DNA from: Parapedobacter pyrenivorans
Lineage (GTDB): Bacteria; Bacteroidota; Bacteroidia; Sphingobacteriales; Sphingobacteriaceae
DNA: 64,000 bases
NCBI RefSeq assembly: GCF_014636865.1
Contig: NZ_BMER01000004.1
Span: 186,001-250,000, forward strand
Direction of reading: 5' to 3'
Position 1 is the first letter of the stretch; each line of letters starts with the position of its first letter. The position numbers and the translations under genes were made by a program. Below the pieces are notes generated by a model. The model was not told where the DNA came from. It searched no databases and was given only the letters and a program-made list of their open reading frames with translations. Below are positions 22,503 through 39,069 of the stretch, in pieces.

Positions 22503-24569
22503 TTAATGATTGTATGCAGCCATCTTCACGTTTTGAATGCCGGTATCATCCGATCTGAACAGCAGCTTTTCGACTTTCAAACCGGGGCAGAACGTAATCA
22601 TGGTGCGTTTACCAGCAATTTCCGCATCGATCTGTGATCCGCCATACTTGGTGTCGTATTTGACGAATATGCGGACGGTGAACGGCCCGTCCGTATCGAA
22701 TAGGTTTTCGATGCCGTAATGGCGGGCGTGGTTCGGAAAGCCGCCTTCGCGCAGGGTCTTTTCCTGTCCGGAGAACTGCTGAAGGGATCCTTGACCGTAT
22801 TGCGCCCTTTTTCCGTGCGGGCTCAACTGGAATTCACAGGCGTGCTCGGCGTCGTCTTCACCTAAGAACAGGGCGCCCAGTTTGCCGGATAGGTCCTCAC
22901 CGGGCTTTACATCAAACGTCAGCAGGAAGGAGGGATCATCGACCTCAAATGTGGAGTTTTCCTCGATTTCATCGGCCAGGGTGCGTTGCCTTCCCGTGAC
23001 CGGCACGAGCTCTTCCATCCATTTGGTGCCGATCCGTCCATCCGGGAACTGGAGCATTTCATGGATGTTTAATGTGCCGCCCCAGTTGGCCATCGGAATC
23101 CAGCCGGCCATCAGAAACCGGCCGTCGTTGATTTCGGTAACCGCGGGTACACACATGCCATTATAGAAATCAAGCCCCTGCTTGACAACGTCCGTATAAC
23201 CGTCTTCTGGTGCGCTGGCGGGCTTTGACCAAAGGCCGGTAAAGCCGCCGATCACGTAGTCGTAATTCCCCCAACGGAAGAAAAACGTGCAGTCACCGCC
23301 GGGAGGAAACCCGGGATTAATGGATTTCCAACCGCCTTCGATCGATTTTGATTCCCAGGTACCCTTTGCGCCGTAGTTCGCCAGCATGCGCAGGCGGCCT
23401 TCGGGATCGGTATAGACGCTGGGGTTTTCGCAATGATGGAATAACGTGTGTGTTTTTTTGAAATTGCTGATCCCATCCGCGCTGATGGAGTAGGTGGATC
23501 CGGCGGGATATCCCGATAGGGTATCGTATCCAAACGAGCCTGTAGCACCGTGTTGGTTGTAATAATCCAATAGCAACGGCAGGGTGGTTGCTTCTTTGGG
23601 ATAGATACGGGTGGTGTGCAGGCCATAGCTGATGCAAAGTTTGCCATCGCTGATGAATGGCGTGCCCGTGCCCAGTGTTTCCCACTGGCTTTCGATCGGG
23701 GTAGCGGCCTCGTGCTCGGTCCAGGTGACGAAGTCGGTCGTTGACAAGTGTTCGAAATAATGCCCACCGCGCCCGAATTTGCTGGCGTGGCCCCGCCTGT
23801 CAAACAGGTAGAATACGTGATACCGGCCCTCATGGTAGAAGGTGGCCACGTCGCCCACCCAGGCGTTGTGGCCGGCAGGGGTCCAGTATTGGATATCCTT
23901 CGCGATTCGTGGAGTTTTTAACGGCGTTTTTGCGGGCTCCAGGCCGGGGAGGAAGAGTTCGGCCCTGGAAACAAGGTCTGGGTCGATCGCCCAGGTCTGC
24001 TGGGCGGGCCATTGGGGATAGCCCAACGCAAAATCATTGTCGAGCAGTTCGCCGTCTACATACAGTGACCAACGTACACCCGAGAAATGGAGGACGATTT
24101 CATGCTGGCCGGTAGATTCGGTCAAAACCCCCAATGGAATGCCGATAATCATATCCCGTACCTCCTTTTCGGTACTGTTCGGAAGCGGGTGCAGCCGCAG
24201 CGCCGCTTGAAATACGGGAACCGAACCATCCGCCATCGGATAGGCTGGATAGTTTTGGAGGTTGCGGTCGGAGGGATCGTGCTTGAAGGCGGTAACCTCC
24301 AGTACACCGGGAATATGCAGCAGTTGCTTACCGGATAGGTGCTGGCCGATCGTGGCGGTCAGCTTGATCGTAAAACTGCTGCTGTCTGCCGGTGCATCAA
24401 AGGTGCCTTGGGCCGACTTCGGCGATAGCGTGCTGGCCGGTGGGACGTCCTCGGAAAATACCCAGGGGGCCGCGTTGAGCTCGATTTGAACAACTTTTTT
24501 CTTTTCAACGCAACCTATAAAAAGCAGGCTGCAGCTGATCAGCATAAGGAAGGGATAAATTGGTCTCAT
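22503..24569 (-). CDS. GH32-like beta-propeller lipoprotein with altered active-site motifs
   Basis: A 688-residue surface or periplasmic lipoprotein (LLFIGC, lipidation at Cys20). Residues about 55-185 look like a concanavalin/LamG-type sandwich and 225-530 like the five-bladed propeller of GH32 and its relatives (WVGDVATFYHEGRYHVFYLF, FDTDG-type C-terminal sandwich later). The three GH32 landmarks are changed: D240 in WVGDV for WMNDP, E381-N382-P383 for the RDP motif, and D426-C427 for the acid/base EC motif. It could have unusual specificity or only bind glycan. Only 15 bp separate it from the regulator gene upstream, so the two are probably co-transcribed. It belongs to the utilisation locus at 22.5-35.4 kb. 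Confidence 0.75.
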   Translation of the reverse strand: MRPIYPFLMLISCSLLFIGCVEKKKVVQIELNAAPWVFSEDVPPASTLSPKSAQGTFDAPADSSSFTIKLTATIGQHLSGKQLLHIPGVLEVTAFKHDPSDRNLQNYPAYPMADGSVPVFQAALRLHPLPNSTEKEVRDMIIGIPLGVLTESTGQHEIVLHFSGVRWSLYVDGELLDNDFALGYPQWPAQQTWAIDPDLVSRAELFLPGLEPAKTPLKTPRIAKDIQYWTPAGHNAWVGDVATFYHEGRYHVFYLFDRRGHASKFGRGGHYFEHLSTTDFVTWTEHEAATPIESQWETLGTGTPFISDGKLCISYGLHTTRIYPKEATTLPLLLDYYNQHGATGSFGYDTLSGYPAGSTYSISADGISNFKKTHTLFHHCENPSVYTDPEGRLRMLANYGAKGTWESKSIEGGWKSINPGFPPGGDCTFFFRWGNYDYVIGGFTGLWSKPASAPEDGYTDVVKQGLDFYNGMCVPAVTEINDGRFLMAGWIPMANWGGTLNIHEMLQFPDGRIGTKWMEELVPVTGRQRTLADEIEENSTFEVDDPSFLLTFDVKPGEDLSGKLGALFLGEDDAEHACEFQLSPHGKRAQYGQGSLQQFSGQEKTLREGGFPNHARHYGIENLFDTDGPFTVRIFVKYDTKYGGSQIDAEIAGKRTMITFCPGLKVEKLLFRSDDTGIQNVKMAAYNH

Positions 24570-24584
24570 TTTTCTTTGAATTAG

Positions 24585-25676
24585 TTAACGAAATTGGCTG
24601 GATTCACGGATAACGATAGCTCCTTTGAGGTTTACGGTGATCGGGATGCGGTTGTTTTCTTTCAACCTGCGCATTAGCAGTTCAATGCTGATGTTGGCAA
24701 TCTCCTCGCAAGGCTGGCGGAATGACGTCAACGAATGCTTCAGGTGCTTGGAGTACTTCATGTCGTCGTATCCGCAGATCAGGATGTCTTTCGATATCTC
24801 GATGCCGAGGTCGTCCAATGACGACATCAGTACGGCTGCCGTCGAATCGTTGGCGCAGATGATGCCTGTTTTGCCGGCAATCACTTCCATGCCCTTTACC
24901 AACTCCAAATCCTCGGGACTGCCGCAGAACACATTGCTTTCCGTAAACGCATAGCCATGCTTAAGCGCCGTATCACGCACCCCTGAAAGGCGCAGGTCTA
25001 CCGAGCTGGCGGAACCCGGCCGGTAGAAAAAATGTAGTTTTTCGCAGCCGCGATCGATGAGGTGCTGGGCCATAACGCAGCCGGCGCTGAAATTATCGAT
25101 GCATACCACATCGAATTCGCTGCGGTCTGGAGCAGCGAGGATATCTCGGTCGATCAGTACCAGTGGGATACCTGCCTCCCGGATGACCTGGCAGATTTTG
25201 AGATTTAACTCGTAGGCATCTGGCACGCGCTCAAGCGGAGAGAAAAAGATGCCATCCACCTTTTTCTGGATGTAGCTTTCGAGACACGATTCGATCAGCG
25301 ATTTCCGGATTTCAGCACTGCTTGCGGTAGCGCCTTCCCAAAAGCAATTAAACATCCCCGATTCGGATTGCCGTAGCAATTGATCGTTGATGATCGAGAA
25401 GATCTCGGATTCTCCGGATCCCGGAAGCAACAGGCCAAACGTGTAGGGGGTGCTGGTGTGTTGGTAAGTGACCACCGTTCCGAGGCCTTTGGTTTTCTTT
25501 ACAAAGCCTTCTTCCTGTAGCTGGTTATACACTTTGGCAATGGTGGGCCTGGATACATCGTATCGTTTGGCAAGCGTCTGTTCGGTAGGTAGCATGGCAC
25601 CCGGCAGAAACCCTTCTTTAATGATCTGGTTCTTGAGCGTGTCGTAGATCGTCTTGTGGCTTGTTTTAGCAGACAT
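24585..25676 (-). CDS. GntR-family regulator with LacI-type sugar-binding domain (AraR-like)
   Basis: A 363-residue transcription factor. The N-terminal winged helix is of GntR type (residues about 8-75: LKNQIIKEGFLPGAMLPTEQ is preceded by IYDT and followed by LAKRYDVSRPTIAKVYNQLQ). Residues about 77-355 are a periplasmic-binding-protein-like sensor as in LacI/AraR (TFGLLLPGSGESEIF, DGIFFSPLERV, IPLVLIDRD, GIICANDSTAAVL). It should bind DNA in the divergent region 25677-26114 and respond to a sugar or sugar phosphate released by the locus. The repeated AATGTTTACATT-type sites there are the likely operators. Confidence 0.93.
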   Translation of the reverse strand: MSAKTSHKTIYDTLKNQIIKEGFLPGAMLPTEQTLAKRYDVSRPTIAKVYNQLQEEGFVKKTKGLGTVVTYQHTSTPYTFGLLLPGSGESEIFSIINDQLLRQSESGMFNCFWEGATASSAEIRKSLIESCLESYIQKKVDGIFFSPLERVPDAYELNLKICQVIREAGIPLVLIDRDILAAPDRSEFDVVCIDNFSAGCVMAQHLIDRGCEKLHFFYRPGSASSVDLRLSGVRDTALKHGYAFTESNVFCGSPEDLELVKGMEVIAGKTGIICANDSTAAVLMSSLDDLGIEISKDILICGYDDMKYSKHLKHSLTSFRQPCEEIANISIELLMRRLKENNRIPITVNLKGAIVIRESSQFR

Positions 25677-25688
25677 AATTAAAGGTAT

Positions 25689-25711
25689 TTACATTGTGGT
25701 GGCAAATGTAA
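25689..25711. promoter_or_regulatory. Inverted TTACATT...AATGTAA site at the regulator promoter
   Basis: TTACATT (25689-25695) and AATGTAA (25705-25711) form a perfect inverted repeat with a 9-base spacer. The right arm overlaps CAAATGTA (25703-25710), which on the minus strand reads TACATTTG, a match to the -7 consensus, so binding here would block the regulator gene itself. Autorepression is an inference. Confidence 0.5.
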
Positions 25712-25833
25712 TATTATTTATTAAATTATTTTTACATTTATTGCAGTAAGGTGTAAATTTTTTCTGCAATTACCTTCCTTGTGGTTAAATTTAGTCGGCA
25801 ATTATTCATCAATTGAAAAATATTCTTCGCCAT

Positions 25834-25857
25834 AATGTTTACATTTCATGTATGTAA
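25834..25857. promoter_or_regulatory. Candidate operator, copy 1
   Basis: AATGTTTACATT (25834-25845) followed by ATGTAA (25852-25857), which again pairs with TTACAT inside the first element. The 12-mer recurs in exact reverse complement at 25997-26008. Expected ligand is the GntR/LacI-type regulator encoded at 24585-25676. Confidence 0.55.
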
Positions 25858-25996
25858 CCCTACCAATTATGCAAGGTGTTGTAGATGGATACTTGTTTTC
25901 ATTATTCTTAATATGAGTGTATTGTGAAAAATTAGGAATGGGAAGTTTTGAATTGCATGGGGATTTAGTGAAAATAAAGGCTTCTTTTTGGTTTTA

Positions 25997-26008
25997 AATG
26001 TAAACATT
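25997..26008. promoter_or_regulatory. Candidate operator, copy 2 (reverse orientation)
   Basis: AATGTAAACATT is the exact reverse complement of the 12-mer at 25834-25845. It ends 26 bases before the -33 element of the rightward promoter (26035), so both copies together could support looping or graded repression. Inference from position and repetition only. Confidence 0.55.
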
Positions 26009-26034
26009 ATGATAATCAATTGTGATAAAATAGT

Positions 26035-26065
26035 TTTGTTTTTGTGAATATCGCCGCTATATTTG
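26035..26065 (+). promoter_or_regulatory. Bacteroidota-type promoter for the rightward operon
   Basis: TTTG (26035-26038) and TATATTTG (26058-26065) are separated by 19 bases, an exact fit to the Bacteroidota -33 TTTG / -7 TAnnTTTG pattern. A start near 26072 gives a leader of about 40 bases before the ATG at 26115. It should drive GH32, susC, susD, kinase and transporter as one operon. Confidence 0.7.
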
Positions 26066-26114
26066 ACCTCGAACTGGTACCAATTATGCCTTGTTTCATG
26101 TAACTTTTATAACC

Positions 26115-27650
26115 ATGTCTAGTCATCGATTTACGTATTTGCCTATCCATTACAAAATCAGCAGTGTCTTCGTTTTGCTGTTGTTGGTTGCAGCGTCTTC
26201 ATCCGCGCAAGTGGTAAAAGACTATAACCCTTCGATCCAACGGACCGCGCAGCTGCAATATTTCAAACCCATCGAACCGCATTTGTTTTCGGGCGATGGC
26301 ATGCCTTATTACCACAACGGCACATTCTACCTGTATTGGCTGTTGGACGAAGGGCATCATGCCGGTTTGGATGGCTTGGGAGGGCATCAGTGGGCCCTGA
26401 GTACCACCACCGACCTTGTTCATTGGAAGCACCACCCGGTGGCGTTGGGCATTGACAATGAGGCGTGGGAAAAGTCGATTTGCACGGGATCCGTCATAGC
26501 AGCTAACGATCAGTTTTACGCGTTTTATGCGACGCGCGTAAAGGATGAAAACGGGGTGCATGAGCAGCTGAGTTATGCGATCAGCAAGGATGGCGGCTAC
26601 ACGTATGAGAAGCAATCACCCAATCCGTTTTACCTGGCCCCGGAGGAATGCATCAGTCGGGATTTCCGGGATCCGAAGGTCTTCAAGGGGAGCGACGGCC
26701 TGTTCCATCTTTTCGTTTCGGGCAACCTGAAGGAGCCGGCAATCAGCGGATTCGGTGGCTATCTGGTGCACCTGGTTTCTATCGATCTGAAAAACTGGGA
26801 AGAAGTGGAATCGCCCTTGCGCGGGCAGCAGGGCACGCCTGAATGCACGGACTATTTCAAATGGAATGATTGGTATTACCTGTTGTACAGCATAGCGGGG
26901 CATACCCATTATGTGATGGCCAAGGAACCTTACGGGCCATGGGTTTATCCCGAGTCGCAAGCCTTGATCGCGCATTTCGAGTGTGTTTATAAAACGGCCG
27001 AGTTTAAGGGCGGGCGCCGTATTGCGGTAGCCTATTCGCCCTACCGTGCCGATGATAAGGATAATGGCGACCGGATTTGGGGCGGAACGATACTTTTCCG
27101 GGAAGTTTACCAGGAGCCGGATGGAACGTTCGCTACGAAATTCCTGCCCGAGGTGCTGCCGGCGTCGTCACCGATGGCTATGCCGCAAATCAAGACCTCG
27201 GCTCCATCGATCGTCGCCATCACGGATGGACGGGTGGAAATAACGGCGGCTGGTGAAGTAGGGGTGGCGGAAGTGAATGACCTGCCCGACAATTACCGGA
27301 TATCCATGCGCATCGAACCGGATGGCAATTATGAGGAGCTGGGGTTGTTTTTGCGGGCTACGGATAAGCGCACGAGTGGCTACCGGCTGACGCTGAATCC
27401 GAATCACGAGACGGTGGTCATGCATAACACCTCGATCGATGCGGTAAAAGGGCTGGATGAGCCAATACTGCTGGACGTGATTGTGTATGAAGATTTTTTT
27501 GATATATCGGTGAATAACAAACGGACCGTGGTGAACCGGTTGCCTGAACAAAAAGGAAATAACCTCTTTTTCTATGTCAAGAATGGCAATGCCGCCATCC
27601 GGGATGTAAAAATCGAAAAGATAGTTAATCTTAATAACCCTAATTTATGA
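26115..27650 (+). CDS. GH32-family exported glycoside hydrolase
   Basis: A 511-residue enzyme with a signal peptide (VFVLLLLVAASSSAQ, cleavage near residue 32). The five-bladed propeller shows the GH32 residues in order: D61 in SGDGMPYYHNGTFYLYW where GH32 has WMNDPNG, R185-D186-P187 (SRDFRDPKVF) and E243-C244 (GTPECTDYF), giving nucleophile, transition-state stabiliser and acid/base. GH32 enzymes cleave beta-fructofuranosides; the altered first motif leaves the exact substrate open. A C-terminal sandwich follows (about 375-505). I took the ATG at 26115; a TTG at 26091 is in frame. Its TGA overlaps the susC ATG as ATGA. Confidence 0.82.
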   Translation: MSSHRFTYLPIHYKISSVFVLLLLVAASSSAQVVKDYNPSIQRTAQLQYFKPIEPHLFSGDGMPYYHNGTFYLYWLLDEGHHAGLDGLGGHQWALSTTTDLVHWKHHPVALGIDNEAWEKSICTGSVIAANDQFYAFYATRVKDENGVHEQLSYAISKDGGYTYEKQSPNPFYLAPEECISRDFRDPKVFKGSDGLFHLFVSGNLKEPAISGFGGYLVHLVSIDLKNWEEVESPLRGQQGTPECTDYFKWNDWYYLLYSIAGHTHYVMAKEPYGPWVYPESQALIAHFECVYKTAEFKGGRRIAVAYSPYRADDKDNGDRIWGGTILFREVYQEPDGTFATKFLPEVLPASSPMAMPQIKTSAPSIVAITDGRVEITAAGEVGVAEVNDLPDNYRISMRIEPDGNYEELGLFLRATDKRTSGYRLTLNPNHETVVMHNTSIDAVKGLDEPILLDVIVYEDFFDISVNNKRTVVNRLPEQKGNNLFFYVKNGNAAIRDVKIEKIVNLNNPNL

Positions 27651-30600
27651 AACGAAAAATAATTGAAACGAGGAAAACGGTGGGCCAAGCGGTACTCCTG
27701 GTTTTATTTTGCATGCTTGCCGGGCAGGGGGTGGCTGGCGCTAGTTCCCCGATGATCAACCAAGAGCAGATCTTGGTATCCGGTACGGTGTTGGACAAGA
27801 ACGGGGCGCCATTATCCAATGTCTCCATTATCGAAAAGGGGACGGGAGGCAACAGCACAAGTACCGATGCCGATGGACGCTTTACCTTGCGCGTAGGCAG
27901 TACCAGTACCCTGACATTCAGCTATGTGGGCTATAAGACCACGGAATTGGCCGCGGCTACCTTGCAGGAGTTGACGATACGGCTGGTTGAAGATGCCTTG
28001 AACCTCGACGAGGTGGTCGTGACCGGTTACACCACCCAGCGCAAAGCGGATCTGACCGGGGCCGTGTCCGTGATCAACGTAGATCAGCTCCGCTCCAGCA
28101 CGACGGGCAGTGCCATGCGGGCTGCCCAGGGTAGGGTGGCCGGGATGGCCGTTACCGTAAACGGCTCGCCGGACCCGTCGGCAGCGGTACGTATTCGCGG
28201 CGAGGGAACGCTGAATAACAACAATCCACTCTATATTATCGATGGTACGCCAACCACGCGTTCCATGGCCGAACTGGCAACTATGGATATTGAATCCATC
28301 CAGGTATTGAAGGATGCGTCGTCGGCCTCCATTTATGGGTCGCGTGCGGCGAACGGCGTGATTATCATTACCACGCGGCGCGGCAAGAAAGGAACGACCG
28401 TCGATTTCACGGCCTCCAACACCCTCACCAGCAGCGCAAAACCCTTCGAATTGATGAATACGGAGCAGCGCGGCATCGCCCAATACTGGGCGATTAAGAA
28501 CGATAATCCGACGGCTGACCCCAACCTGGTCGGGATCGGGTTTGTGCGTGATTTCGGTGGTCTGTACCAGTATGAAGACCATCAGGATGCCAACGGAAAT
28601 TGGATGCTCGACAACGTGTCTTGGCGTGAATTCCTCGATCCGATTGAACAAACGATGCGCTCGGCAGATACCGATTGGCAAAAGGAAATCCTGCGGACCG
28701 GCATGATTCAGCAATACAACGTTACGGTGTCTTCGGGTACGGACAACGGCAATGCGCTCTTGGCCGCGGATTATTACGATAATAAGGGAACCATCGACGG
28801 CAGTTTCTTCCGGCGCTTCAATGCGCGGATCAATACCGATTACAGCTGGCTGGACGGAAAGGTGAAAATCGGTGAGAACTTCACCGTGTCGCAGTGGCGC
28901 TCCAGTTCGAATGTGGGCGACGGAAACCTGGGGAGCACCAAATCGCTCATGTCTATTGTGCCGGTGCATACGGTAGACGGCATTGGCTGGGGCGGGCCGA
29001 TCGGTGGGATGAGCGATCGCCAGAACCCGGTGCGCTTGATAGCGGACAATAAACAGAATCATCAGGATAACCTGCGCCTGTTTGGGAATACTTACCTCAA
29101 TATCGAGCTTTTGAAAGGCCTGAATTTCCGCTCGTCTTTTGGGGTTGATTTTGTGGGTTACTGGCGGCGGACCATGGATTTGACGTATGAATCGGGCTTT
29201 TTGAGCGAGGCTCGGAATGGGGTATACCAGACGTCCAACTATAATTACGATTGGAATAACAGCAACATCTTGCAGTATGTATTCGACGTGGATAAGCATA
29301 ATTTCGATGTGATGGTCGGGCAGGAGACCGTTGATCATTCGTATCAGTCCCATTGGGGAAGCCGCCGGGTGTTTGCCCTGGAAACGCCGGATTACATGCA
29401 GTTGGATGCAGGTGAGGAAGACCGTGAAAATGGGGGTGGAGCCAGCAATAACACGCTGATTTCGTGGTTTGGAAAATTCAACTACAACTTCGGGGACCGG
29501 TACCTGGCCTCCGGCACCCTCCGCAGGGATGCTTCTTCGGTATTCGGGGCGAACAACCGTTGGGCGACATTCCCCGCGGTGTCTTTTGGATGGGTGCTGA
29601 ATAACGAGCCGTTTCTGCAAGACGCGCTTGCTGGGTTTTCGCAATTGAAACTCCGCTACGGATGGGGACAAAACGGCAACGCACAGATCGATGACTATGC
29701 GGCCTACTTGATGTACAGTCCACTTTATGACCCCAATTCGGTGTGGGACTGGAACTGGGGCACGGCCTATGATTTTACCGGGGAAGGCGGGAGCAACCTG
29801 CCTTCGGGCTTCCGCCGTACCCAGCGCAACAACCCGGACCTGCGGTGGGAAACGACCACCCAGCATAACTTTGGGCTGGATTTTGCGCTTTTTGCCGGCA
29901 AATTTGGCGGCTCGCTCGACTATTACCTCAAAAAGACAACGGATATCCTGATGAAACCGGGTACGGTGGCGACACTCGGTGAAGGCGCCCAAATGTGGTT
30001 GAATGGTGCAGATATCGATAACAAGGGCATCGAATTGACCCTGAACTATGCGGATAATTTCGGTGATGTGGGTTTGAACATCAGTGGCGTGGTTTCGCAC
30101 AATAAGCAACGGATCTTGAAGGTGCCCGATGAGGTCATCAATAATTTTGCCGGAAACGGAACCGATCAAAACATCTTGGGGCGCTCCCGTTCATCCATGT
30201 ACGGCTATATTGCCGATGGCCTGTTCCAATCGCAGGCCGAGGTGGATGCACACGCTACGCAGGTGGGTGCAGCGCCGGGGCGCATCCGTTTTCAGGATGT
30301 AAACGGCGACGGTAAGATCGATCAGGAGGACCGCGCGTGGCTGGGCAACCAAGACCCGAGTGCGGAGTATGGGGTAAACGTGGGCGTGACGTGGAAAAAC
30401 TTCGACTTCGCCGTATTCTTCAACGGGCTGGCGGGAAAGAAGCTTAATGTACAGGGTTGGAAATCCTGGACCGATATCTACGCGTTGAGTACGTCTGGCG
30501 AAAACTACGGTACCCGCCTGTTGGACGCGTGGACACCGACCAACACCAATACCACCATCCCGGCGATATCGATCAATAATTACAATGACGAAGGACGGTT

Positions 30601-30850
30601 CTCGACCTACTACGTGGAAACCGGTTCGTACATGAAAATCCGGAACATGGAACTGGGGTATACCCTTCCTACGGCATTGCTGGATCAGGTGCGCATGAAA
30701 CGGGTGCGGCTCGCTTTGCGGGCCGACAACGTATTGCTTATTAAGAAGACGTGGGGCGACAGCCCGTATACCGGTTTGGATCCGGAAACGCCGGGAAGCG
30801 GATACCCGCTACCATTTTCGATGACGTTTACGATAAACGTTTCATTCTAA
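27647..30850 (+). CDS. SusC/RagA-family TonB-dependent outer-membrane receptor
   Basis: A complete 1067-residue SusC. After a signal peptide (about residues 15-35) come the carboxypeptidase-regulatory-like domain (VSGTVLDKNGAPLSNVSI to FSYVGYKTTE), the LDEVVVTGY segment, the plug (PLYIIDGTP, VLKDASSASIYG) and the barrel ending in FTINVSF. It imports oligosaccharides with the SusD protein encoded 24 bp downstream. The ATG lies within the 4-base ATGA overlap with the GH32 gene, so enzyme and importer are translated together. A 785-codon antisense frame inside it is a coding shadow. Confidence 0.97.
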   Translation: MKRKIIETRKTVGQAVLLVLFCMLAGQGVAGASSPMINQEQILVSGTVLDKNGAPLSNVSIIEKGTGGNSTSTDADGRFTLRVGSTSTLTFSYVGYKTTELAAATLQELTIRLVEDALNLDEVVVTGYTTQRKADLTGAVSVINVDQLRSSTTGSAMRAAQGRVAGMAVTVNGSPDPSAAVRIRGEGTLNNNNPLYIIDGTPTTRSMAELATMDIESIQVLKDASSASIYGSRAANGVIIITTRRGKKGTTVDFTASNTLTSSAKPFELMNTEQRGIAQYWAIKNDNPTADPNLVGIGFVRDFGGLYQYEDHQDANGNWMLDNVSWREFLDPIEQTMRSADTDWQKEILRTGMIQQYNVTVSSGTDNGNALLAADYYDNKGTIDGSFFRRFNARINTDYSWLDGKVKIGENFTVSQWRSSSNVGDGNLGSTKSLMSIVPVHTVDGIGWGGPIGGMSDRQNPVRLIADNKQNHQDNLRLFGNTYLNIELLKGLNFRSSFGVDFVGYWRRTMDLTYESGFLSEARNGVYQTSNYNYDWNNSNILQYVFDVDKHNFDVMVGQETVDHSYQSHWGSRRVFALETPDYMQLDAGEEDRENGGGASNNTLISWFGKFNYNFGDRYLASGTLRRDASSVFGANNRWATFPAVSFGWVLNNEPFLQDALAGFSQLKLRYGWGQNGNAQIDDYAAYLMYSPLYDPNSVWDWNWGTAYDFTGEGGSNLPSGFRRTQRNNPDLRWETTTQHNFGLDFALFAGKFGGSLDYYLKKTTDILMKPGTVATLGEGAQMWLNGADIDNKGIELTLNYADNFGDVGLNISGVVSHNKQRILKVPDEVINNFAGNGTDQNILGRSRSSMYGYIADGLFQSQAEVDAHATQVGAAPGRIRFQDVNGDGKIDQEDRAWLGNQDPSAEYGVNVGVTWKNFDFAVFFNGLAGKKLNVQGWKSWTDIYALSTSGENYGTRLLDAWTPTNTNTTIPAISINNYNDEGRFSTYYVETGSYMKIRNMELGYTLPTALLDQVRMKRVRLALRADNVLLIKKTWGDSPYTGLDPETPGSGYPLPFSMTFTINVSF

Positions 30851-30874
30851 CTGTAAATTTTAAGATAACGAATC

Positions 30875-32593
30875 ATGAAAGCATTAAATCTATTCGGTCT
30901 CGGTCTCATCCTGGTGCTATCCGGTGCGTGCGAGTCCATGCTTGATACCAAGCCTCAGGGCGTTGTTGCGGATGAAGATTTGAATGAGCCGGAGCAAGTC
31001 GAAAAAATGATCAACGCTGCCTACTCGTTCGTGGGACAGAATCACTTCAACAAACAGATGGGCATGCCTTACGAGGAGGGAACAGTGCGTGGTGGCGAGG
31101 CTTATAAGGGCGGATCGGGCACCAACGACAATGCTGAGCGCAACCGTTGGGAAACATTCACTTATATGCAGCCTACCAACGTCGGCGACCTGGATAACCT
31201 GTGGTGGGTGCACTATGTGGCCGTTGGGCGTGTCCACGATGCATTGCGAAGGGTGAAAAACCTGACGGCCGAGCAATATCCGCTTCGGGAACAGCGCATC
31301 GCCGAGCTGAGGTTCCTCCGTGGTCACATCTACATGTATATGAAACAGTGTTTCAAATTTTTCCCCTATATCGATGAGGATACGCCACAGGATATGTACG
31401 ACAAGGTGAGTAATGATGCATTGTCTGACCAAGAGCTGTGGGGGAAATTAATCGAGGATTTCCGCTTTGCGGCGGGTGTGTTGCCGGATGTGCAAGCTGA
31501 AGTGGGCAGGCCTACGGGTTTTGCGGCTAAAGCGTACCTGGCGAAGACACTGATTTTCGCGGCATATGAGCAGGACGATAACCATAACGTCATCAACATC
31601 AACCGCGAAAAGCTAACTGAAGTGGCGGCGTTGTGCAAGGATATTATCGACAATTCGGGAAAGCGCTTGGCACCGGATTTTGCCGAGAATTTCCTGTGTG
31701 AGTATGAAAATGGTACGGAGTCCATCTGGGCTATCCAGTACACGACGGATACGCAGACGGGCCGCTTGAATTCGTGGCTCGTGTCGCCAGTGAATTCGGA
31801 CTATGGCTGCTGCGGCTTTCTGCAGCCGTCTGTAAATATGATGAACCGTTATAAAACGGTAAATGGCGTGCCGGATTTCGAAAATTTCAATTCGGGTATC
31901 TTACTGGACAACAAAGCGGCTTTTGCAGCCACCCCGATGGATCCACGCTTGATGCATACGGCGGCTGTGCCTGGCATGCCCTGGAAGTATGAGCCTTCTT
32001 ACATCATGGGCGAAAATTGGGTGCGTACGCCTGAGGTGTACGGCTACTCCATGAGCCAGAAGCTGCTGGTTTCGCCGACGTCCGACTGTTTTAAAAAGAC
32101 AAACCCCTTTATGGGGGCGGGCCTGAACTGGGATGTGTTGCGGCTCGACGAGGTGATGCTGTGGCGCGCTGAAGCGCTGATCCAGCTTGAACAGGAGATG
32201 GACGAAGCCCTTCGGCTGATCAACGAGATTAGGGAACGTGCGGCAAACAGTACCGACCGGTTGAAGTTTGCGGACGGGACCCCGACCGGCAGGTTCGACG
32301 TGCAGCCGTATCGGCCGGGCCAGAATTGTCCGGCCTGGACCAAGGAATTTGCGCTGCAGGCACTCCGCTGGGAGCGTCACCTGGAGTTTGCAACGGAAGG
32401 CAAATGGTTCTTCGATTTAGTACGATGGGGTATTGCGGCCGAGCAGCTTAATGCGTATTTTGCGGTCGAAAAGACCAGACGGTCTTACCTGAGAGATGCT
32501 AACTTCACTAAAAACCGTGATGAGTACTTTCCGATTCCGGAGGTGCAGATCAGCTACGTGAAGGGACTGTATAAACAAAATGCAGGTTGGTAG
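30875..32593 (+). CDS. SusD/RagB-family outer-membrane lipoprotein
   Basis: A 572-residue glycan-binding partner of the preceding SusC. The signal peptide ends LVLSGAC with lipidation at about Cys19. SusD landmarks include LRFLRGHIYMYMKQCF, a helix LDEVMLWRAEALIQL, ERHLEFATEGKWFFDLVRWG and the C-terminal FPIPEVQISYVKGLYKQNAGW. It is intact and followed after 34 bp by the sugar kinase gene on the same strand, consistent with one operon. Confidence 0.95.
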   Translation: MKALNLFGLGLILVLSGACESMLDTKPQGVVADEDLNEPEQVEKMINAAYSFVGQNHFNKQMGMPYEEGTVRGGEAYKGGSGTNDNAERNRWETFTYMQPTNVGDLDNLWWVHYVAVGRVHDALRRVKNLTAEQYPLREQRIAELRFLRGHIYMYMKQCFKFFPYIDEDTPQDMYDKVSNDALSDQELWGKLIEDFRFAAGVLPDVQAEVGRPTGFAAKAYLAKTLIFAAYEQDDNHNVININREKLTEVAALCKDIIDNSGKRLAPDFAENFLCEYENGTESIWAIQYTTDTQTGRLNSWLVSPVNSDYGCCGFLQPSVNMMNRYKTVNGVPDFENFNSGILLDNKAAFAATPMDPRLMHTAAVPGMPWKYEPSYIMGENWVRTPEVYGYSMSQKLLVSPTSDCFKKTNPFMGAGLNWDVLRLDEVMLWRAEALIQLEQEMDEALRLINEIRERAANSTDRLKFADGTPTGRFDVQPYRPGQNCPAWTKEFALQALRWERHLEFATEGKWFFDLVRWGIAAEQLNAYFAVEKTRRSYLRDANFTKNRDEYFPIPEVQISYVKGLYKQNAGW

Positions 32594-32627
32594 GTACACG
32601 ATAAGATAGCGAACAGAAATAGCATTT

Positions 32628-33956
32628 ATGCACTTTATTGGAATAGATATCGGTACCAGCTCGGTCAGCGGTGTTGCTTATACGGCCGAAAGCCGTGAAA
32701 TAGAATCCGTAACCATACCCAATGATGCCGGTATCTACTCGGTGAAACGTTGGGAACGGGCGCAGGACCCGATGCGGATCTTGGAAATCGTACGCATGAT
32801 AATTGATGATTTTTCGCTGCGTTATACGACGATTCGGGGAATCGGCATTACAGGCCAGATGCACGGCATACTCTATGTAGATCGGGACGGCGATGCCATC
32901 AGCCCGCTTTATACCTGGCAAGATGGCCGTGCGAATTTGCGCTATAAGACCGGCATGACGTATTCGGCGTTTCTTTCCGAATCAACGGGTCATTCCGTGC
33001 CTTCCGGTTTCGGGCTGGCCACTCATTTTTACAACTGCCACAATGGCCTGGTGCCCGACCGGGTTGCGAAAATCTGCACCATCATGGATTTTGTGGTGAT
33101 GAAACTGGTGGATCGGACGACGCCCGTTACCGATTATTCCAATGGCGCCGGCCTTGGCTTGTTTGATGTGGAACAGTTGGATTTTGATCATGCTGCACTC
33201 GCCAGGGTCGGCATAGACAGCGCATTGCTTCCGGAGCTCGCCGAATCGACCATTTCTTGTGGCCACTACCGCGATATACCGGTTTATATGGCTGTTGGTG
33301 ACAATCAGGCTGCTTTTTTGGGTTCCGTGGACCATTTAAAGCAATCCATTCATGTAACCGTGGGAACCAGCAGCCAAGTCTCCGTCTTCTCGGACAACTA
33401 CATGAAAATCCCAGGCATAGAGACCCGCCCGTTTCCGGGCGGCGGATACATGCTGGTCGGGGCGGCGCTATGTGGTGGCCAGGCTTTTGCCATGCTGCGG
33501 ACGTTTTTTGAAGACACGGTAGCGAAATTCAGTGGATATCCAACCGAAGGACTCGATTTTTATAAGATCATGACGTCTGTAGCCTACAAGGATGATTCCG
33601 TTGATCTGCCCATTGTGGAAACGCTTTTTGACGGTACACGCTCCGCGCCGGATAAGCGGGGGAATATCGAAAATATCTCCACCCACAACTTCACACCCGA
33701 TAACCTGATTATCGGACTTTTGAAAGGCATTTGCCGCGAACTCTACCAGTTCTATCAAGCGCTTCCTGAAGAAGTGCGCAGTGCTAAGTCGGTACTCGTC
33801 GGTTCTGGCAACGCACTCAAACGGAATCCCTTGTTGTGCCGCGCTTTTGAAGAGCAGTTCAAAACTGCCCTTATTTTTTCACCTTATGACGAAGAAGCCG
33901 CATTCGGAGCTTGCCTGAATGCCATAGCCGGCTCCACTTCGACAATCGTTAATTAA
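32628..33956 (+). CDS. FGGY-family carbohydrate kinase, sedoheptulokinase-like
   Basis: A 442-residue cytoplasmic sugar kinase. FGGY marks: phosphate-binding loop GIDIGTSS (residues 5-12), ITGQMHGILY (74-83), TWQDGR (96-101), GFGLATHF (127-134), catalytic base D225 in MAVGDNQAAF, and GSGNALKRN near 393-401. The set TWQDGR, GFGxAT, GDxQA and GSGxAL-RN is shared with animal sedoheptulokinase (SHPK) as I remember it, more than with xylulo- or glycerol kinases. The likely reaction is ATP-dependent phosphorylation of a ketose such as sedoheptulose or fructose. It follows susD and precedes a sugar symporter, completing import and activation. The substrate is an inference. Confidence 0.82.
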   Translation: MHFIGIDIGTSSVSGVAYTAESREIESVTIPNDAGIYSVKRWERAQDPMRILEIVRMIIDDFSLRYTTIRGIGITGQMHGILYVDRDGDAISPLYTWQDGRANLRYKTGMTYSAFLSESTGHSVPSGFGLATHFYNCHNGLVPDRVAKICTIMDFVVMKLVDRTTPVTDYSNGAGLGLFDVEQLDFDHAALARVGIDSALLPELAESTISCGHYRDIPVYMAVGDNQAAFLGSVDHLKQSIHVTVGTSSQVSVFSDNYMKIPGIETRPFPGGGYMLVGAALCGGQAFAMLRTFFEDTVAKFSGYPTEGLDFYKIMTSVAYKDDSVDLPIVETLFDGTRSAPDKRGNIENISTHNFTPDNLIIGLLKGICRELYQFYQALPEEVRSAKSVLVGSGNALKRNPLLCRAFEEQFKTALIFSPYDEEAAFGACLNAIAGSTSTIVN

Positions 33957-33992
33957 AATACGTCATTCGATTTTTATCTAATTATACCGATT

Positions 33993-35363
33993 ATGAAAAT
34001 TCCCCGGATTGTATTGTTTATCGCTACGGTGGCGGCCATCGGTGGTCTGCTATTCGGATTTGACACCGGAGTCATCTCCGGTGCGCTGCCGTTCCTGCAG
34101 GAACATTGGACGCTCACCGATAGCCAGCTGGAATGGCTGACCACTTCCGTACTGCTTGGCGCTATCATTGGTGCAATTGCGAGCGGTGGTGTCACCGAAA
34201 TACTGGGAAGAAAGAAAATGATCATCGTCAATGCCATCATTTTCTTCGGCGCGTCCTTAGGATGTGCGTTTGCTTCCAGCATTACCGAACTGATTATCAT
34301 GCGGATGGTCATCGGAATTGCCATCGGCATCACCTCCTATGTCGTGCCGATGTATATCGCCGAAATCTCGCCGAAGAAGTATCGCGGCGGATTGGTAACG
34401 TTGAATCAGCTGATGATTACCATCGGGATTTTAGCGTCTTACATCACGGACTATTGGCTGTCTAACGACCAGGATCTCGAATCCTGGCGGGCGATGTTTA
34501 TGGTGGGGATATATCCCGCCATTGCCCTGCTGATCGGGATGTTTTTCCTTCCTGAATCACCCCGGTGGCTGATTTCCAAAAATAAGCTGGAAAAAGGTCG
34601 CGCCATTCTGGAGCAAATCGAAAGCAAAGATCAAGCGCAGCAAATTATACAAGACGTGCAATACGACCTAACGGTGTCGCGGAACAACTCGGGTTTGAAG
34701 GAACTGTTTAAACCGTGGCTCCGGATACCGCTATCCATCACCGTGATGATTTTCTTTTTCCAGCAGTTTTCGGGTGTGAATACGATTATCTATTATTCGC
34801 CCACTATTTTCAAAATGGCGGGCATCGTGAGCAACACAGCTTCCATCATACCGGCCATTATCATCGGTGCGGCCAACGTAGCGGCGTGTGCTTTTTCCGT
34901 CATCATGCTCGACCGCTGGGGGAGACGTAAGCTCTTCCTGATTGGTATCAGCGGTATGATCCCGTCGTTGGCAGTGCTGGGTGTAAGCTTCCATTTCGGT
35001 GAGCAGCTAGGCGATATGCTTCCCTATTACGCTGCAGGAAGCATCATTGCGTTTATCATCTTCATCGCCATCAGCCTGGCGCCACTCGGTTGGTTATTAA
35101 TCTCCGAAATCTTTCCGCTCCGCACCAGGAGCTTAGGCATGAGCGTGGGGTCGCTGGCCCATTGGGGATTTAATGCCGTTGTTGCTTTTACCTTCCTGAA
35201 ACTGGTCAATACGCTGGGCGTGGCCTACACCTTTTGGAGCTATGCGCTGGTATGCGTTATTGGACTATTGTGGGGGTATTTTTACATCCCGGAGACCAAG
35301 GAAAAGTCGTTGGAAGAAATAGAGGACCATTGGCGGCAAGGCAAATCGGCGCGATCGTTGTAG
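33993..35363 (+). CDS. Sugar:proton symporter of the MFS sugar-porter family
   Basis: A 456-residue inner-membrane transporter with about 12 helices. Sugar-porter signatures are FGFDTGVISGALPFL (helix 1), GRKKM after helix 2, FFLPESPRWL (about residues 185-194) before the central loop, QQFSGVNTIIYYSP (helix 7), DRWGRRKLF and the C-terminal PETKEKSLEEIE. Relatives include XylE, GlcP and AraE. It should bring the monosaccharide released in the periplasm to the FGGY kinase. It is the last gene of the rightward operon and its stop lies one base from the stop of the converging TonB-transducer gene. Confidence 0.93.
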   Translation: MKIPRIVLFIATVAAIGGLLFGFDTGVISGALPFLQEHWTLTDSQLEWLTTSVLLGAIIGAIASGGVTEILGRKKMIIVNAIIFFGASLGCAFASSITELIIMRMVIGIAIGITSYVVPMYIAEISPKKYRGGLVTLNQLMITIGILASYITDYWLSNDQDLESWRAMFMVGIYPAIALLIGMFFLPESPRWLISKNKLEKGRAILEQIESKDQAQQIIQDVQYDLTVSRNNSGLKELFKPWLRIPLSITVMIFFFQQFSGVNTIIYYSPTIFKMAGIVSNTASIIPAIIIGAANVAACAFSVIMLDRWGRRKLFLIGISGMIPSLAVLGVSFHFGEQLGDMLPYYAAGSIIAFIIFIAISLAPLGWLLISEIFPLRTRSLGMSVGSLAHWGFNAVVAFTFLKLVNTLGVAYTFWSYALVCVIGLLWGYFYIPETKEKSLEEIEDHWRQGKSARSL

Positions 35364-35364
35364 A

Positions 35365-38007
35365 TCAATTCCCGATTCGTTGCTGTTCTTCCTCTGCACT
35401 CTGCTCAATCTTTCTATTGCTAAACGTTTTGCCTGATGATATGGTATAGCTGAAGGATAGGCCCACGGTTCGGGTGGGGCGCTTCTGGTAAAAATACACG
35501 GTGGCACCACGGTCTTGGGTGACTTCGCGCTCGCGCGCCGTGTTGAAGATATCGGTAACGTTGAGCCGCAGCCGGGCTTGATTGTTCCATAGGCGCTTAG
35601 TGAAGCCGATGTCTACGCTACAGTAATCCGCCATTTCCGAATTGGCCGTGAGGTAAGGCGATCGGTAGAACGCAAACAGGTCGGCATCGCCGATCTTTTT
35701 GATCGTGAATACCTGATAGGTACTGATGTTGAGTGATGTATTGCGGTAGTCGGCTTCGGCTATCCGATAGCGCAAGAGATACACGTTCATGTTGTTGGTC
35801 ATCGACCACCACGGCTTCACCTTCACCGGCGCATATATACTGGTACCATAGCGGTGGCTGCTACCGAAATTCCGGATTTGGTATTCAATCATCTTATCGA
35901 CGGATTCCGCATACTGGGCCATCATGTTGCTGGTGGTTGCGTAATAGATATCCCACGATAGTCCACCCATCAGCGTGACGCCTGCTTCCACACGGTCGGT
36001 ATACTCGGGCAGCAGGTCCGGGTTGCCGATCTGGGCCAGGAAGTCGTAAAACTGCAACCGATAGGGGTTGAGCGCCGAAAACGACGGCCTGCTCAACCTG
36101 CGGGTGTAATTGAGCACCAGCGACTTTTTGCCCGCGCTGTCCAACCGGTGTAGGAGGAATACCGACGGAAACAGGTTCACATAGGATCGCCGGAAGCGGA
36201 TGTCTGCACTTACGGAATGACCATCCATGATGGTCTGCTCCGCCCGGAGCCCCACCTGTGCGCTGAACCGCTTAAATTGGCGTTCGAGTGCGGCATAGCC
36301 CATCAATAGCTGCTCCTGATACCGGAAACGGTTGCTTCGCCCGGGGTCAAGTAGCCATTGGCCGGATTCGAATTGTTCGTGTATGACTTCATTGTCCCGA
36401 TCGGTATTCGTGAATTTTAGTCCGGCTTTGAGCTGTATGGCATCCAGCCATCGGTTGTAATCGGTTTGCACACTATACAGGCGCGTGGTACTGGGCGTCG
36501 CATTGCGGAACACGGCATCCCGTTGCGGATCGGTGTAACGGGAGTGGAATTCATTGGTGTTGGGGTTTTCACTGTCCAGGTAATCGGCGAGTACTTTCAA
36601 TCCGGATCCGAGGCTGTCGGTTTTCCAGCTGTAGTTCAATGTAGCACTGTTCAATCCGGGCGTCCGCGTCCAATCGGATGTGGCCGATCCTTCCGTTACA
36701 TGCTGCGGGTCGATCAACGCGATGTCTGTATCAAATCGCTGGAGCAGTTTGCCGCGATTCAGGTTGGTCTGGAGGCCGACGGATTGATTCGCACTGAATT
36801 CATAGATGGCACCCAAGCGCAGCATCGCCTGTTGGTTGTTGTTTTCGCGATCGGTAAAGCTGCTGTAGGCATGCTGGTCCGGATACCGGATATCGTTGGT
36901 TGCGATATAGGCACTGCGATCCCGGTTATACCCCCCGGTGCCGAAAACATAGAGGTTCTTGATTTTGTAATTGAGGGTAGCGCCCACGCCATATGCAGGC
37001 CGCTGCACCTGTTGGCGATACTGCGTGTTGAGCGTGCCGGTAAACCCTTCATCGCGCCCCTGTTTCAACAGGATGTGCACGATGCCGCCGGAACCCTCGG
37101 CCTCAAACTCCGCAGGCGGATTGGGCAGGATTTCGATCTTGGCAATATCTTCTGACCGCAAGGTACGTAGGTATTCTGCCAGATCGGTGGCCGACATACG
37201 CTGCACCACGTCATTGATCATGACCATCACCGATTGCCCCCGCAGGCTGATGTTGCCGTTGGGGTCTACCCACAGTCCGGGTGACTTCTGCAGGATTTCC
37301 AAGCCGTTGCTCCCGGTTTCCAGGATACTTCCGGCTACGTTGACGATGAACCGGTCGGCCCGTCGTTCGATGGGCGGTCGCGAAGCTTGTACCTGCACTT
37401 CGGCCAGTAGATGGTGATCCCTCTTTAGGGTAATCGCAGTGAGCTGAGCCGTATCGGGATACACAAAGGCGAACGCCACGGATTGGAAACCGATGGAGGT
37501 TACCTTCACCGTATAGGATTGCCCGGCGTCGAATGCATACCGAAAGCTGAAATGGCCTTGCCTATCCGTGGTACTTCCGGTGAGAAAGCGGTCGGCCGCA
37601 TACAATCCGACCGATGCAAAGGCGAGCGGGCGGTCGGCACTATTGCGTACGTGGCCCCGGATCCGTATGCCTTTAGCCTCGGCGGGCTGCTGTATGCCAT
37701 GCAGCTTCAGACTACTTACTACTAATGTTTTGTCGGATAGCTCGCGGTAAAACAGGTCGTGCCCGGGCAGGACGTTTTGAAGCAGCTCATCAATGGCGTA
37801 TTCACCGGGGGCAACGGATACGGCCATGCTATCGGTAACGACGTCGTTGCTGTAAATCACGTGGTACCTGGATTGCCGGGCGATGATTTCCAATACCGCG
37901 ACCAATGAACGCTGTTCATGGTTGATCCGGATTGATCCGCTTTGGGCGACTAGCCGATAACTGCTTAGCAGCAGCAGAAGGAAGAGCAGGTAGGGATGGT
38001 TTCTCAA
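35365..38007 (-). CDS. TonB-dependent outer-membrane transducer with STN signalling domain
   Basis: An 880-residue outer-membrane protein. After the signal peptide (residues 1-21) comes an STN domain (about 25-98: LVAVLEIIARQSRYHVIYSN), which contacts FecR-type anti-sigma factors, then a carboxypeptidase-regulatory-like domain (IRGHVRNSADRPLAFASVGL), a plug (about 200-320) and a barrel of the OMP_b-brl_3 type. The FecR and ECF sigma genes lie immediately upstream in the same direction (3 bp to fecR), so ligand binding here should trigger the sigma factor. The ligand, an iron complex or a glycan, cannot be told. Confidence 0.92.
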   Translation of the reverse strand: MRNHPYLLFLLLLLSSYRLVAQSGSIRINHEQRSLVAVLEIIARQSRYHVIYSNDVVTDSMAVSVAPGEYAIDELLQNVLPGHDLFYRELSDKTLVVSSLKLHGIQQPAEAKGIRIRGHVRNSADRPLAFASVGLYAADRFLTGSTTDRQGHFSFRYAFDAGQSYTVKVTSIGFQSVAFAFVYPDTAQLTAITLKRDHHLLAEVQVQASRPPIERRADRFIVNVAGSILETGSNGLEILQKSPGLWVDPNGNISLRGQSVMVMINDVVQRMSATDLAEYLRTLRSEDIAKIEILPNPPAEFEAEGSGGIVHILLKQGRDEGFTGTLNTQYRQQVQRPAYGVGATLNYKIKNLYVFGTGGYNRDRSAYIATNDIRYPDQHAYSSFTDRENNNQQAMLRLGAIYEFSANQSVGLQTNLNRGKLLQRFDTDIALIDPQHVTEGSATSDWTRTPGLNSATLNYSWKTDSLGSGLKVLADYLDSENPNTNEFHSRYTDPQRDAVFRNATPSTTRLYSVQTDYNRWLDAIQLKAGLKFTNTDRDNEVIHEQFESGQWLLDPGRSNRFRYQEQLLMGYAALERQFKRFSAQVGLRAEQTIMDGHSVSADIRFRRSYVNLFPSVFLLHRLDSAGKKSLVLNYTRRLSRPSFSALNPYRLQFYDFLAQIGNPDLLPEYTDRVEAGVTLMGGLSWDIYYATTSNMMAQYAESVDKMIEYQIRNFGSSHRYGTSIYAPVKVKPWWSMTNNMNVYLLRYRIAEADYRNTSLNISTYQVFTIKKIGDADLFAFYRSPYLTANSEMADYCSVDIGFTKRLWNNQARLRLNVTDIFNTAREREVTQDRGATVYFYQKRPTRTVGLSFSYTISSGKTFSNRKIEQSAEEEQQRIGN

Positions 38008-38010
38008 GGT

Positions 38011-39060
38011 CTATTCGATTACAATCCGATTTTCCGTTTCAAAGCGATACGTGAATGGATAGGCTACCTGCAACACTTTCAATACGTTTTCCAAAGATGT
38101 GTCGTCATCAAATGCACCGGTGAATCGGATGTCATTTAGTTGTTCAGGACGCACAATGAATTGTACCTTGAATTTTTTACTGATGCGGCGAAGCACACCT
38201 TCCAACGTTTCCACATGGAATGTAAGGGAATCCGCCGTGGGCCACCAGCCCAGTTCGTTTAAAAGCGAATCTTTTGAAAAAGTGGTCAACGCCGCTTGGG
38301 TTTGATTGCGTCTGACTTCCAGTTGCTGCATGGGGGATAGTCGAACAGGGGAGCCCTGTCCTGTTGTGCTATCGGGTACGCCGGATACTTCGACGGCGCC
38401 TTCAAGCAACGCAACGGTTGCCGAAGGAGCATCTTCATACGCACGGACCTGAAAAGTGGTGCCAACTACCCGTACCTGTAACGGACCAGCGTGGACAACC
38501 AGCGGAAGTGCGCTGTTTTTCGCTACCTCGAAATAGGCTTCTCCGGCCAAGTTGATGGTGCGGTTGTGCTTGCCGAAATCGGCATTATACCGTAGGATAG
38601 AGGAGGGGTTTAGCACAATAAATGTACCATCCGCCAAGGTGATGAACTGTTTGTCGGTCTCGGTTCTGATTTCGGCAAATGCCGGTTCGGCAGGCATCCG
38701 GAAGTACCAGTATAGGGCCATTCCAATGCCGATGCAAAACAAAATCGTGGCCGCCAGACGTAGCCAGTTACCGCGTCCACTGATCCGGTCCGGTGGCGCT
38801 TCCTGATCAGCTGAATCGTGGGTAACGTCCGGGGACTCTGCGGATTCCTCGGCCTCGATGGCTTCCCATAGCCCCGCCAAGTTGATGCGATTGGCCATAG
38901 TCGGCCGTCGCTTTGTCTGAAAATACAGATCCAAAACTTCCGCCTGCCGTTTAAAGCCAACATTTGTCTCCCGGATTTCCCCCAGCTTACGCGCCTCTTC
39001 CGGTGGCAGCGAGCCGGCTAGTTTTCGGGAAAGTAACTGTAAAAAAACTTCTTTATCCAT
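38011..39060 (-). CDS. FecR-family anti-sigma factor
   Basis: A 349-residue inner-membrane protein. An N-terminal cytoplasmic part (about 1-95) binds the sigma factor, one membrane helix follows (about 100-122, LRLAATILFCIGIGMALYWYF), then the periplasmic FecR domain (about 130-235, LADGTFIVLNPSSILRY, VVGTTFQVRAY) and a C-terminal DUF4974 domain (FHVETLEGVLRRISKKFKV, IRFTGAFDDDTSLENVLKVL). It passes the signal from the STN domain of the downstream transducer to the upstream sigma factor (9-bp gap to its gene). Confidence 0.94.
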   Translation of the reverse strand: MDKEVFLQLLSRKLAGSLPPEEARKLGEIRETNVGFKRQAEVLDLYFQTKRRPTMANRINLAGLWEAIEAEESAESPDVTHDSADQEAPPDRISGRGNWLRLAATILFCIGIGMALYWYFRMPAEPAFAEIRTETDKQFITLADGTFIVLNPSSILRYNADFGKHNRTINLAGEAYFEVAKNSALPLVVHAGPLQVRVVGTTFQVRAYEDAPSATVALLEGAVEVSGVPDSTTGQGSPVRLSPMQQLEVRRNQTQAALTTFSKDSLLNELGWWPTADSLTFHVETLEGVLRRISKKFKVQFIVRPEQLNDIRFTGAFDDDTSLENVLKVLQVAYPFTYRFETENRIVIE

Positions 39061-39069
39061 ATAGCCTCC

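Follow-up and report, generated by a model that had tools for sequence, protein, structure and literature searches.

The question raised by a seven-gene locus of Parapedobacter pyrenivorans is which ketose it was built to consume. The locus lies in a 64,000-nucleotide stretch of the 5.93 Mb genome (G000:C4:186001-250000), hereafter the window, and runs from a GH32-type gene (22503) to a transporter gene (35363). It combines GH32-type proteins and a SusC/SusD importer of fructan type with a sugar kinase of the FGGY family. Our leading reading, which we hold tentatively, is that a fructan-type locus has here been duplicated and re-specialised, and that the ketose it sets free is not simply fructose. 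Two observations argue that the phosphorylated sugar is most likely not simply fructose: the same genome already serves fructose with a separate locus and a PfkB kinase, and some relatives of the window locus add a dedicated glycyl radical enzyme.

A ketose-glycan utilisation locus had been proposed at this place in an earlier note made from the sequence alone. Gene families were assigned with Pfam and NCBIfam models, which agree with the locus and the gene identities given there. The features are as follows.

22503..24569, minus strand: GH32b, a GH32-type protein (PF00251 at 23.3 bits, cut-off 22.1) with a lipoprotein-like signal, LFIGC, recognised by eye
24585..25676, minus strand: fusion of a GntR DNA-binding domain and a LacI-type sugar sensor (PF00392, PF13377), the probable regulator of the locus
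25833..25846, minus strand: candidate operator AAATGTAAACATTA, copy 1, an exact pattern match
25996..26009, plus strand: candidate operator AAATGTAAACATTA, copy 2, the only other mismatch-free match in the window
26091..27650, plus strand: GH32a, probably exported, start codon uncertain (PF00251 at 89.5 bits)
27647..30850, plus strand: SusC-type TonB-dependent importer of the levan (BT1763) family (872 bits to BT1763 structures)
30875..32593, plus strand: SusD-type lid of the levan (BT1762) family (398 bits to BT1762 structures)
32628..33956, plus strand: FGGY kinase (PF00370 and PF02782 above cut-off)
33993..35363, plus strand: sugar porter of the major facilitator superfamily (MFS), probably for inner-membrane uptake of the released sugar (TIGR00879 at 376 bits against a cut-off of 238)

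The host genome also carries a canonical fructan locus, which provides a close comparison. A whole-genome GH32 search found six places, the two strongest of which adjoin on contig 5 with a PfkB kinase nearby. This locus, L059 (G000:C5:102001-120000), contains an MFS transporter, PfkB, SusC, SusD and two GH32 enzymes with intact motifs (WMNDPNG/WINDPNG, RDP and ECP). The window locus repeats its gene set of SusC, SusD, two GH32-type proteins, kinase and MFS transporter, but lacks both the intact GH32 enzymes and PfkB, the FGGY kinase standing in the place of the latter. SusC and SusD are each 49% identical between the two loci and the MFS transporters 36%; at 49%, the window locus is a paralogous version of the fructan locus with a different kinase and different hydrolases. 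The contrast that the earlier note had drawn with PfkB-using fructan loci is thus borne out inside the host genome.

Membership of the window kinase in FGGY is clear (FGGY_N at 82.6 bits, cut-off 28.8; FGGY_C at 29.3 bits, cut-off 27). It scores below the cut-offs of all seven NCBIfam models that match it, the best being XylB (TIGR01312) at 109.3 bits against an equivalog cut-off of 380.25; its sequence supports the view that this is no ordinary xylulokinase. The kinase is a rare member of its family. Searches found it in three of the order's 201 genomes at E <= 1e-40, its own included; in two of 395 genomes of the phylum at E <= 1e-70, namely its own and G359, whose copy (locus L086) is distant; and in 11 of the 123 genomes of the family of G593. 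One set of scanned genome contigs contained 14 relatives of 41% identity or above and 12 of 28% or below, the closest named ones being those of Parapedobacter indicus (90%) and P. defluvii (89%). Among plasmids, 250 records matched the kinase; the best of the 10 listed (103 bits) lies at an unannotated place, and the remaining listed matches are xylulokinase, gluconokinase, glycerol kinase, FGGY kinase or unannotated. The predicted structure (mean predicted local distance difference test score, pLDDT, 81.5) has the FGGY fold, and its fold neighbours, for which Foldseek was also run, are xylulose, fuculose and glycerol kinases, tied at a Z of about 37; this tie carries no information on the substrate. 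No molecule named sedoheptulokinase was among the matches listed in the sequence and structure searches made with the kinase.

The earlier note recognised in this kinase the motif set of sedoheptulokinase, SHPK (TWQDGR, GFGLAT, GDNQA and GSGNALKRN). All four are present in the window protein, although the set is less constant among relatives: across 14 aligned sequences W-Q-D-x-R is invariant while the G of the motif varies and GFGLAT varies to GYGLVT, and the more distant kinase of locus L085 carries WED instead of WQD. Human SHPK, an animal enzyme that acts on free sedoheptulose, presumably shares the motifs WQDGR, GFG.AT, GD.QA and GSG.AL.RN and groups with the window kinase at 100% bootstrap, but is only about 26% identical to it.

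That grouping depends on a single provisional human SHPK sequence, not one taken from a database, which served as the SHPK reference in trees and searches and whose long branch was flagged by the tree program. A first tree included eight E. coli FGGY kinases and nine other FGGY proteins of the host genome; a second included seven and seven, with 12 of 53 kinase rows omitted. In both, the window kinase and its relatives form a separate FGGY branch, joined by this one long-branched provisional reference with support of 100/99 in the first tree and 100/100 in the second. The second tree nests SHPK between L086 and L085, at moderate support (93/72). From a further, SHPK-free tree 20 of the 53 rows were omitted, the SHPK sequence among them; the omissions from the second and SHPK-free trees also covered the fragment L081, very long branches and near-duplicates, and the fragment L028 is in no tree. 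In blastp the provisional SHPK scores 104-132 bits to the kinase branch (108 to the window kinase) and 64 to E. coli XylB. Among 395 Bacteroidota genomes it matched one (G359) at E <= 1e-20, and a plasmid search matched 46 records, of which the 15 listed reach 74 bits at best and are xylulokinases wherever annotated. On the strength of this one sequence, an affinity of the kinase to SHPK is likely, and the uncommon FGGY branch to which it belongs probably includes SHPK.

The trees also bear on a rival explanation, which we consider improbable, namely a substrate with pentulose furanosides (e.g., xylulofuranosides), served by a pentulose kinase that has diverged. XylB is the best NCBIfam match of the kinase, albeit below cut-off, and xylulose kinase is among its tied structural neighbours, together with glycerol and fuculose kinases. 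When the provisional SHPK is left out, a union of the kinase branch with the xylulokinases is not rejected by the approximately unbiased (AU) test (p-AU 0.48). When SHPK is present, a union of the xylulokinases with the branch, L086 included, that leaves SHPK outside is rejected at p-AU 2.6e-6, a test that supersedes an earlier one in which L086 was also placed outside and which was not clean. Moreover, the window kinase is not nested inside the XylB group in either the second or the SHPK-free tree, and the importer of the locus is of fructan type. Clustering with xylulokinase had been named in the earlier note as the outcome that would undo its proposal; the phylogenetic check it called for shows the SHPK grouping in two trees and rejects such clustering with SHPK present, yet does not reject it once the SHPK row is removed, so that the proposal came through this check only in part.

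The importer ties the locus to fructans. Against solved structures, the window SusD scores 398 bits to BT1762 and 51 to the next other protein, and the window SusC scores 872 bits to BT1763 and 476 to the next other SusC; by these similarities, the pair belongs to the levan/fructan importer family. The levan polysaccharide utilisation locus of Bacteroides thetaiotaomicron resembles the window in this SusC/SusD family (BT1763/BT1762) and in its GH32-clan enzymes; its kinase, which we take to be PfkB, has an FGGY counterpart in the window, where the GH32 proteins are non-canonical only. Whereas the window has a GntR/LacI regulator, the B. thetaiotaomicron locus has the sensor BT1754 (PMC7782687). 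From the same paper, on the levan complex, we took the levan-contact residues of BT1762 and BT1763 and compared them by eye on the alignments to these structures: the window SusD retains N43, D67, C298, C299 and R368, has F for Y395 and lacks D41 and W85, while the primary levan site of SusC retains D406 and differs at T380, D383 and N901.

Both GH32-like proteins of the window have modified first motifs, as the earlier note described; both retain the nucleophile Asp, and the locus has no canonical GH32 besides them. GH32a reads SGDGMP at this motif and keeps the nucleophile Asp, the RDP Asp and the Glu of EC, three catalytic acids that are present in all seven aligned members. GH32b reads VGDVAT and, although its nucleophile is kept, RDP has become ENP and EC has become DC; it is therefore without two of the three catalytic positions, a pattern common to 8/8 aligned family members. 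A predicted structure of GH32b was unusable (mean pLDDT 53, with the propeller mostly below 50) and was not used.

Besides the window, 23 kinase loci were read. Twenty loci are assessable (the window, L016-L027 and L078-L084), having a kinase at least 50% identical to that of the window and enough contig; L028 (kinase 58%), a contig of 3.3 kb, was excluded. All 20, window included, have a GH32-type gene close to the kinase. Eight of the 20 contain a canonical-type GH32, and fructofuranosyl linkages are therefore probably part of the substrate; the one in L017, the sole one scanned, has a LamG domain. Six L024-family loci (L024, L078, L079, L080, L081 and L083) have a fourth, scrB-like GH32 type whose first motif is WTGEP, one of the two L081 pieces being without the WTGEP region. 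In L081:9325-19744 the glycyl radical enzyme, the scrB-like GH32 and the canonical-type GH32 are each split over two overlapping frames, probably assembly frameshifts. As for the inner-membrane transporter, the window-type sugar porter recurs in L016 and L017, a sugar porter of 33-34% identity in L025-L027, and a FucP-like MFS protein in L020-L024, L078-L082, L084 and L085; none was seen in the stretches of L018, L019 and L083.

No GH32 gene was seen in the stretches read around the kinases of L029, L085 and L086 (41, 31 and 32% identity). The L085 set (L085:1354-5174) is minimal, consisting of a regulator (53%), a FucP-like transporter (60%) and the kinase (31%) with no GH32 or SusC/SusD gene in the 15 kb read, and looks like a system for uptake of a free monosaccharide. 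Such loci are what would be expected if kinase and transporter generally served a free sugar, with the GH32 genes as neighbours by chance or as loose members of a regulon. We regard this as very improbable for the window, given kinases just 31-41% identical in those three loci and GH32-type genes in 20/20 assessable ones. Beside the same-branch kinase of L086 (L086:9741-15405) lie open reading frames (ORFs) that by eye are GH38-, PfkB- and TIM-barrel-epimerase-like, perhaps a different pathway.

A glycyl radical enzyme adjoins the kinase in L024, L028 and L081, three genomes of one family; L024 and L028 are from Tannerellaceae and Tannerella, and L081 came from the same family search. The order in L024 and L081 is transporter, activase, glycyl radical enzyme and kinase, and the L028 contig begins inside the glycyl radical enzyme gene and runs into the kinase. 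The protein is a member of the glycyl radical class by its PFL-like domain (scanned in L024), its Cys within GCQEP at the active-site position, its Gly within RIHG at the radical position and the activase gene (L024 and L081). With B12-independent glycerol dehydratase, E. coli PflD and YbiW it has the C-x-E motif and C-terminal Gly loop in common. It comes nearest to glycerol dehydratase, at 203 bits, but it differs at the positions aligned with His281 and Asp447, which we take to be the glycerol-binding sites, and it falls below the cut-offs of all nine NCBIfam models that match it. At E <= 1e-60 it was found in three of the 123 family genomes, all three among the 11 with the kinase (hypergeometric probability 5e-4). 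Catabolism of fructose 6-phosphate needs no glycyl radical step, and the enzyme therefore favours either a sugar out of the ordinary or some further component in the glycan.

A strong rival, and a serious possibility, is that the window holds a second true fructan locus, for a fructan of other linkage or branching, in which the FGGY protein is an unusual fructokinase replacing PfkB locally. The levan-family importer fits this explanation, as do the canonical-type GH32 genes in 8/20 loci, and fructose requires no enzyme beyond a kinase. The distribution of PfkB cuts both ways. Matches to the L059 PfkB at E <= 1e-30 were found in 18 of the 21 other genomes with the kinase or its L085 relative (11/13 and 7/8), at 33-61% identity, mostly below 40% in Bacteroidales and in many cases just 33-37%, and the host itself has PfkB in L059; both speak against this rival. 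The three genomes with no match at this threshold are those of L024, L028 and L084, two of which have the glycyl radical enzyme; the third genome with that enzyme (L081) has a partial match at 34%. The rival is further at odds with the lack of a canonical GH32 in the window locus, and leaves the glycyl radical enzyme unexplained. A PfkB family search of 13 genomes returned 3-12 matches each, among which no fructokinase could be named.

Several points weigh against our preferred reading of a released ketose other than simple fructose. The import pair of the window is of fructan type, and since the host's canonical SusD in L059 has a similar GCC, Arg and missing-Trp pattern, the contact residues show no change of cargo. 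Canonical-type GH32 genes occur in eight of the 20 kinase loci, and the six of these that were examined for motifs all have the full set (WLNDPNG or WINDPNG, RDP and ECP), which points to fructose. In the genomes of L024 and L028, which have no PfkB match, the FGGY enzyme could be the fructokinase. The affinity to SHPK depends on the flagged, provisional sequence; without it, the xylulokinase union is not rejected, at the p-AU of 0.48 given above. In the whole-genome search with this sequence the host genome gave no match at E <= 1e-20, and from an identity of about 26% the substrate cannot be inferred. Finally, we know of no natural sedoheptulofuranoside glycan, and the literature listings show none.

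If the locus does release a ketose other than simple fructose, SusC and SusD, whose family is that of levan importers, would import a ketofuranoside oligosaccharide. GH32a, together with the canonical-type GH32 of some relatives, would release the ketose in the periplasm, in keeping with its retained catalytic acids, and GH32b, which is likely to be a lipoprotein, may bind glycans at the cell surface or catalyse an altered reaction. The MFS transporter would then move the free sugar over the inner membrane, and the kinase, following the chemistry of its family, would phosphorylate a terminal hydroxyl. The other-ketose substrate of the earlier note gains from the SHPK grouping, the separate PfkB locus and the glycyl radical enzyme, and loses from the fructan-type SusC/SusD and the canonical GH32 in 8/20 loci. 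Of the sugars it named, sedoheptulose is possible and the best candidate, though a guess, while psicose, whose pathway is linked to allulose-6-phosphate epimerase, is less likely because reading of the ORFs found none resembling that epimerase in the locus. The most specific proposal, which we think unlikely, is that Bacteroidota maintain a dedicated locus for a fructan-like glycan containing sedoheptulose or another non-fructose ketofuranoside. Rebuilt GH32 proteins would harvest it, a sedoheptulokinase of catabolic function would bring the sugar into metabolism, and some Tannerellaceae would process the ketose or its phosphate further with a new glycyl radical enzyme; a so far undescribed class of natural glycan would follow from this.

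A literature search found no publication combining sedoheptulokinase with FGGY and, judged by title and abstract opening among the matches listed, no such locus. The term ‘sedoheptul’ is absent from the main text of the FGGY family paper PMC3245297, and PMC8599487, the only one of the papers listed to contain the word sedoheptulofuranose, refers in the passages seen just to a free 7-deoxy sugar. Should the sugar prove to be other than fructose, the locus would point to a natural ketofuranoside so far undescribed and supply the enzymes for finding it. If it is fructose, the kinase would be an FGGY fructokinase, which to our knowledge has not been described. Either way, GH32b and the kinase-linked glycyl radical enzyme are testable new subfamilies in a locus that automatic annotation would probably call a plain fructan or xylulose locus.

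Regulation was called GntR/LacI-type in the earlier note, and PF00392 and PF13377 both lie in the ORF at 24585-25676; a homologue is present in 11 of the 23 other loci read. The two copies of AAATGTAAACATTA between the regulator and GH32a are the sole exact matches in 64 kb. With two mismatches allowed there are five matches against 3 expected, a number reached by 24 of 100 shuffles, and just the exact sites are therefore of interest. The 10-mers AAATGTAAAC and AATGTAAACA recur in the regulator intergenic region of the window, L016-L021 and L027, eight of 15 stretches tried, a set in which several were short or did not represent a regulator promoter. The regulator may switch the locus with the sugar by binding at the AAATGTAAACATT repeats. 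Together, the candidate operators and the gene order common among relatives point to a single coherent locus.

The flanks look separate. Upstream lies a sigma-factor-like protein with DUF6596 that appears unrelated to the locus. The downstream flank (35365-39684, minus strand) adjoins the locus with a gene for a beta-barrel outer-membrane protein (PF14905), followed by FecR-like and sigma-factor-like genes recognised by eye, and likewise looks unrelated.

In two relatives, from Sphingobacteriaceae and Chitinophagaceae, the kinase locus is accompanied by an additional cluster, similar in the two (L017:13095-21308, domain-scanned, and L025:13208-21271, read by eye), with genes for a leucine-rich/List-Bact repeat protein, a small protein that by eye is SGNH-like, a WbsX-family protein, and SusD-like and SusC-like proteins. 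The P. defluvii SusC (L017:2760-5963) is divided into two ORFs of 672 and 379 aa, either an interrupted gene or an assembly fault.

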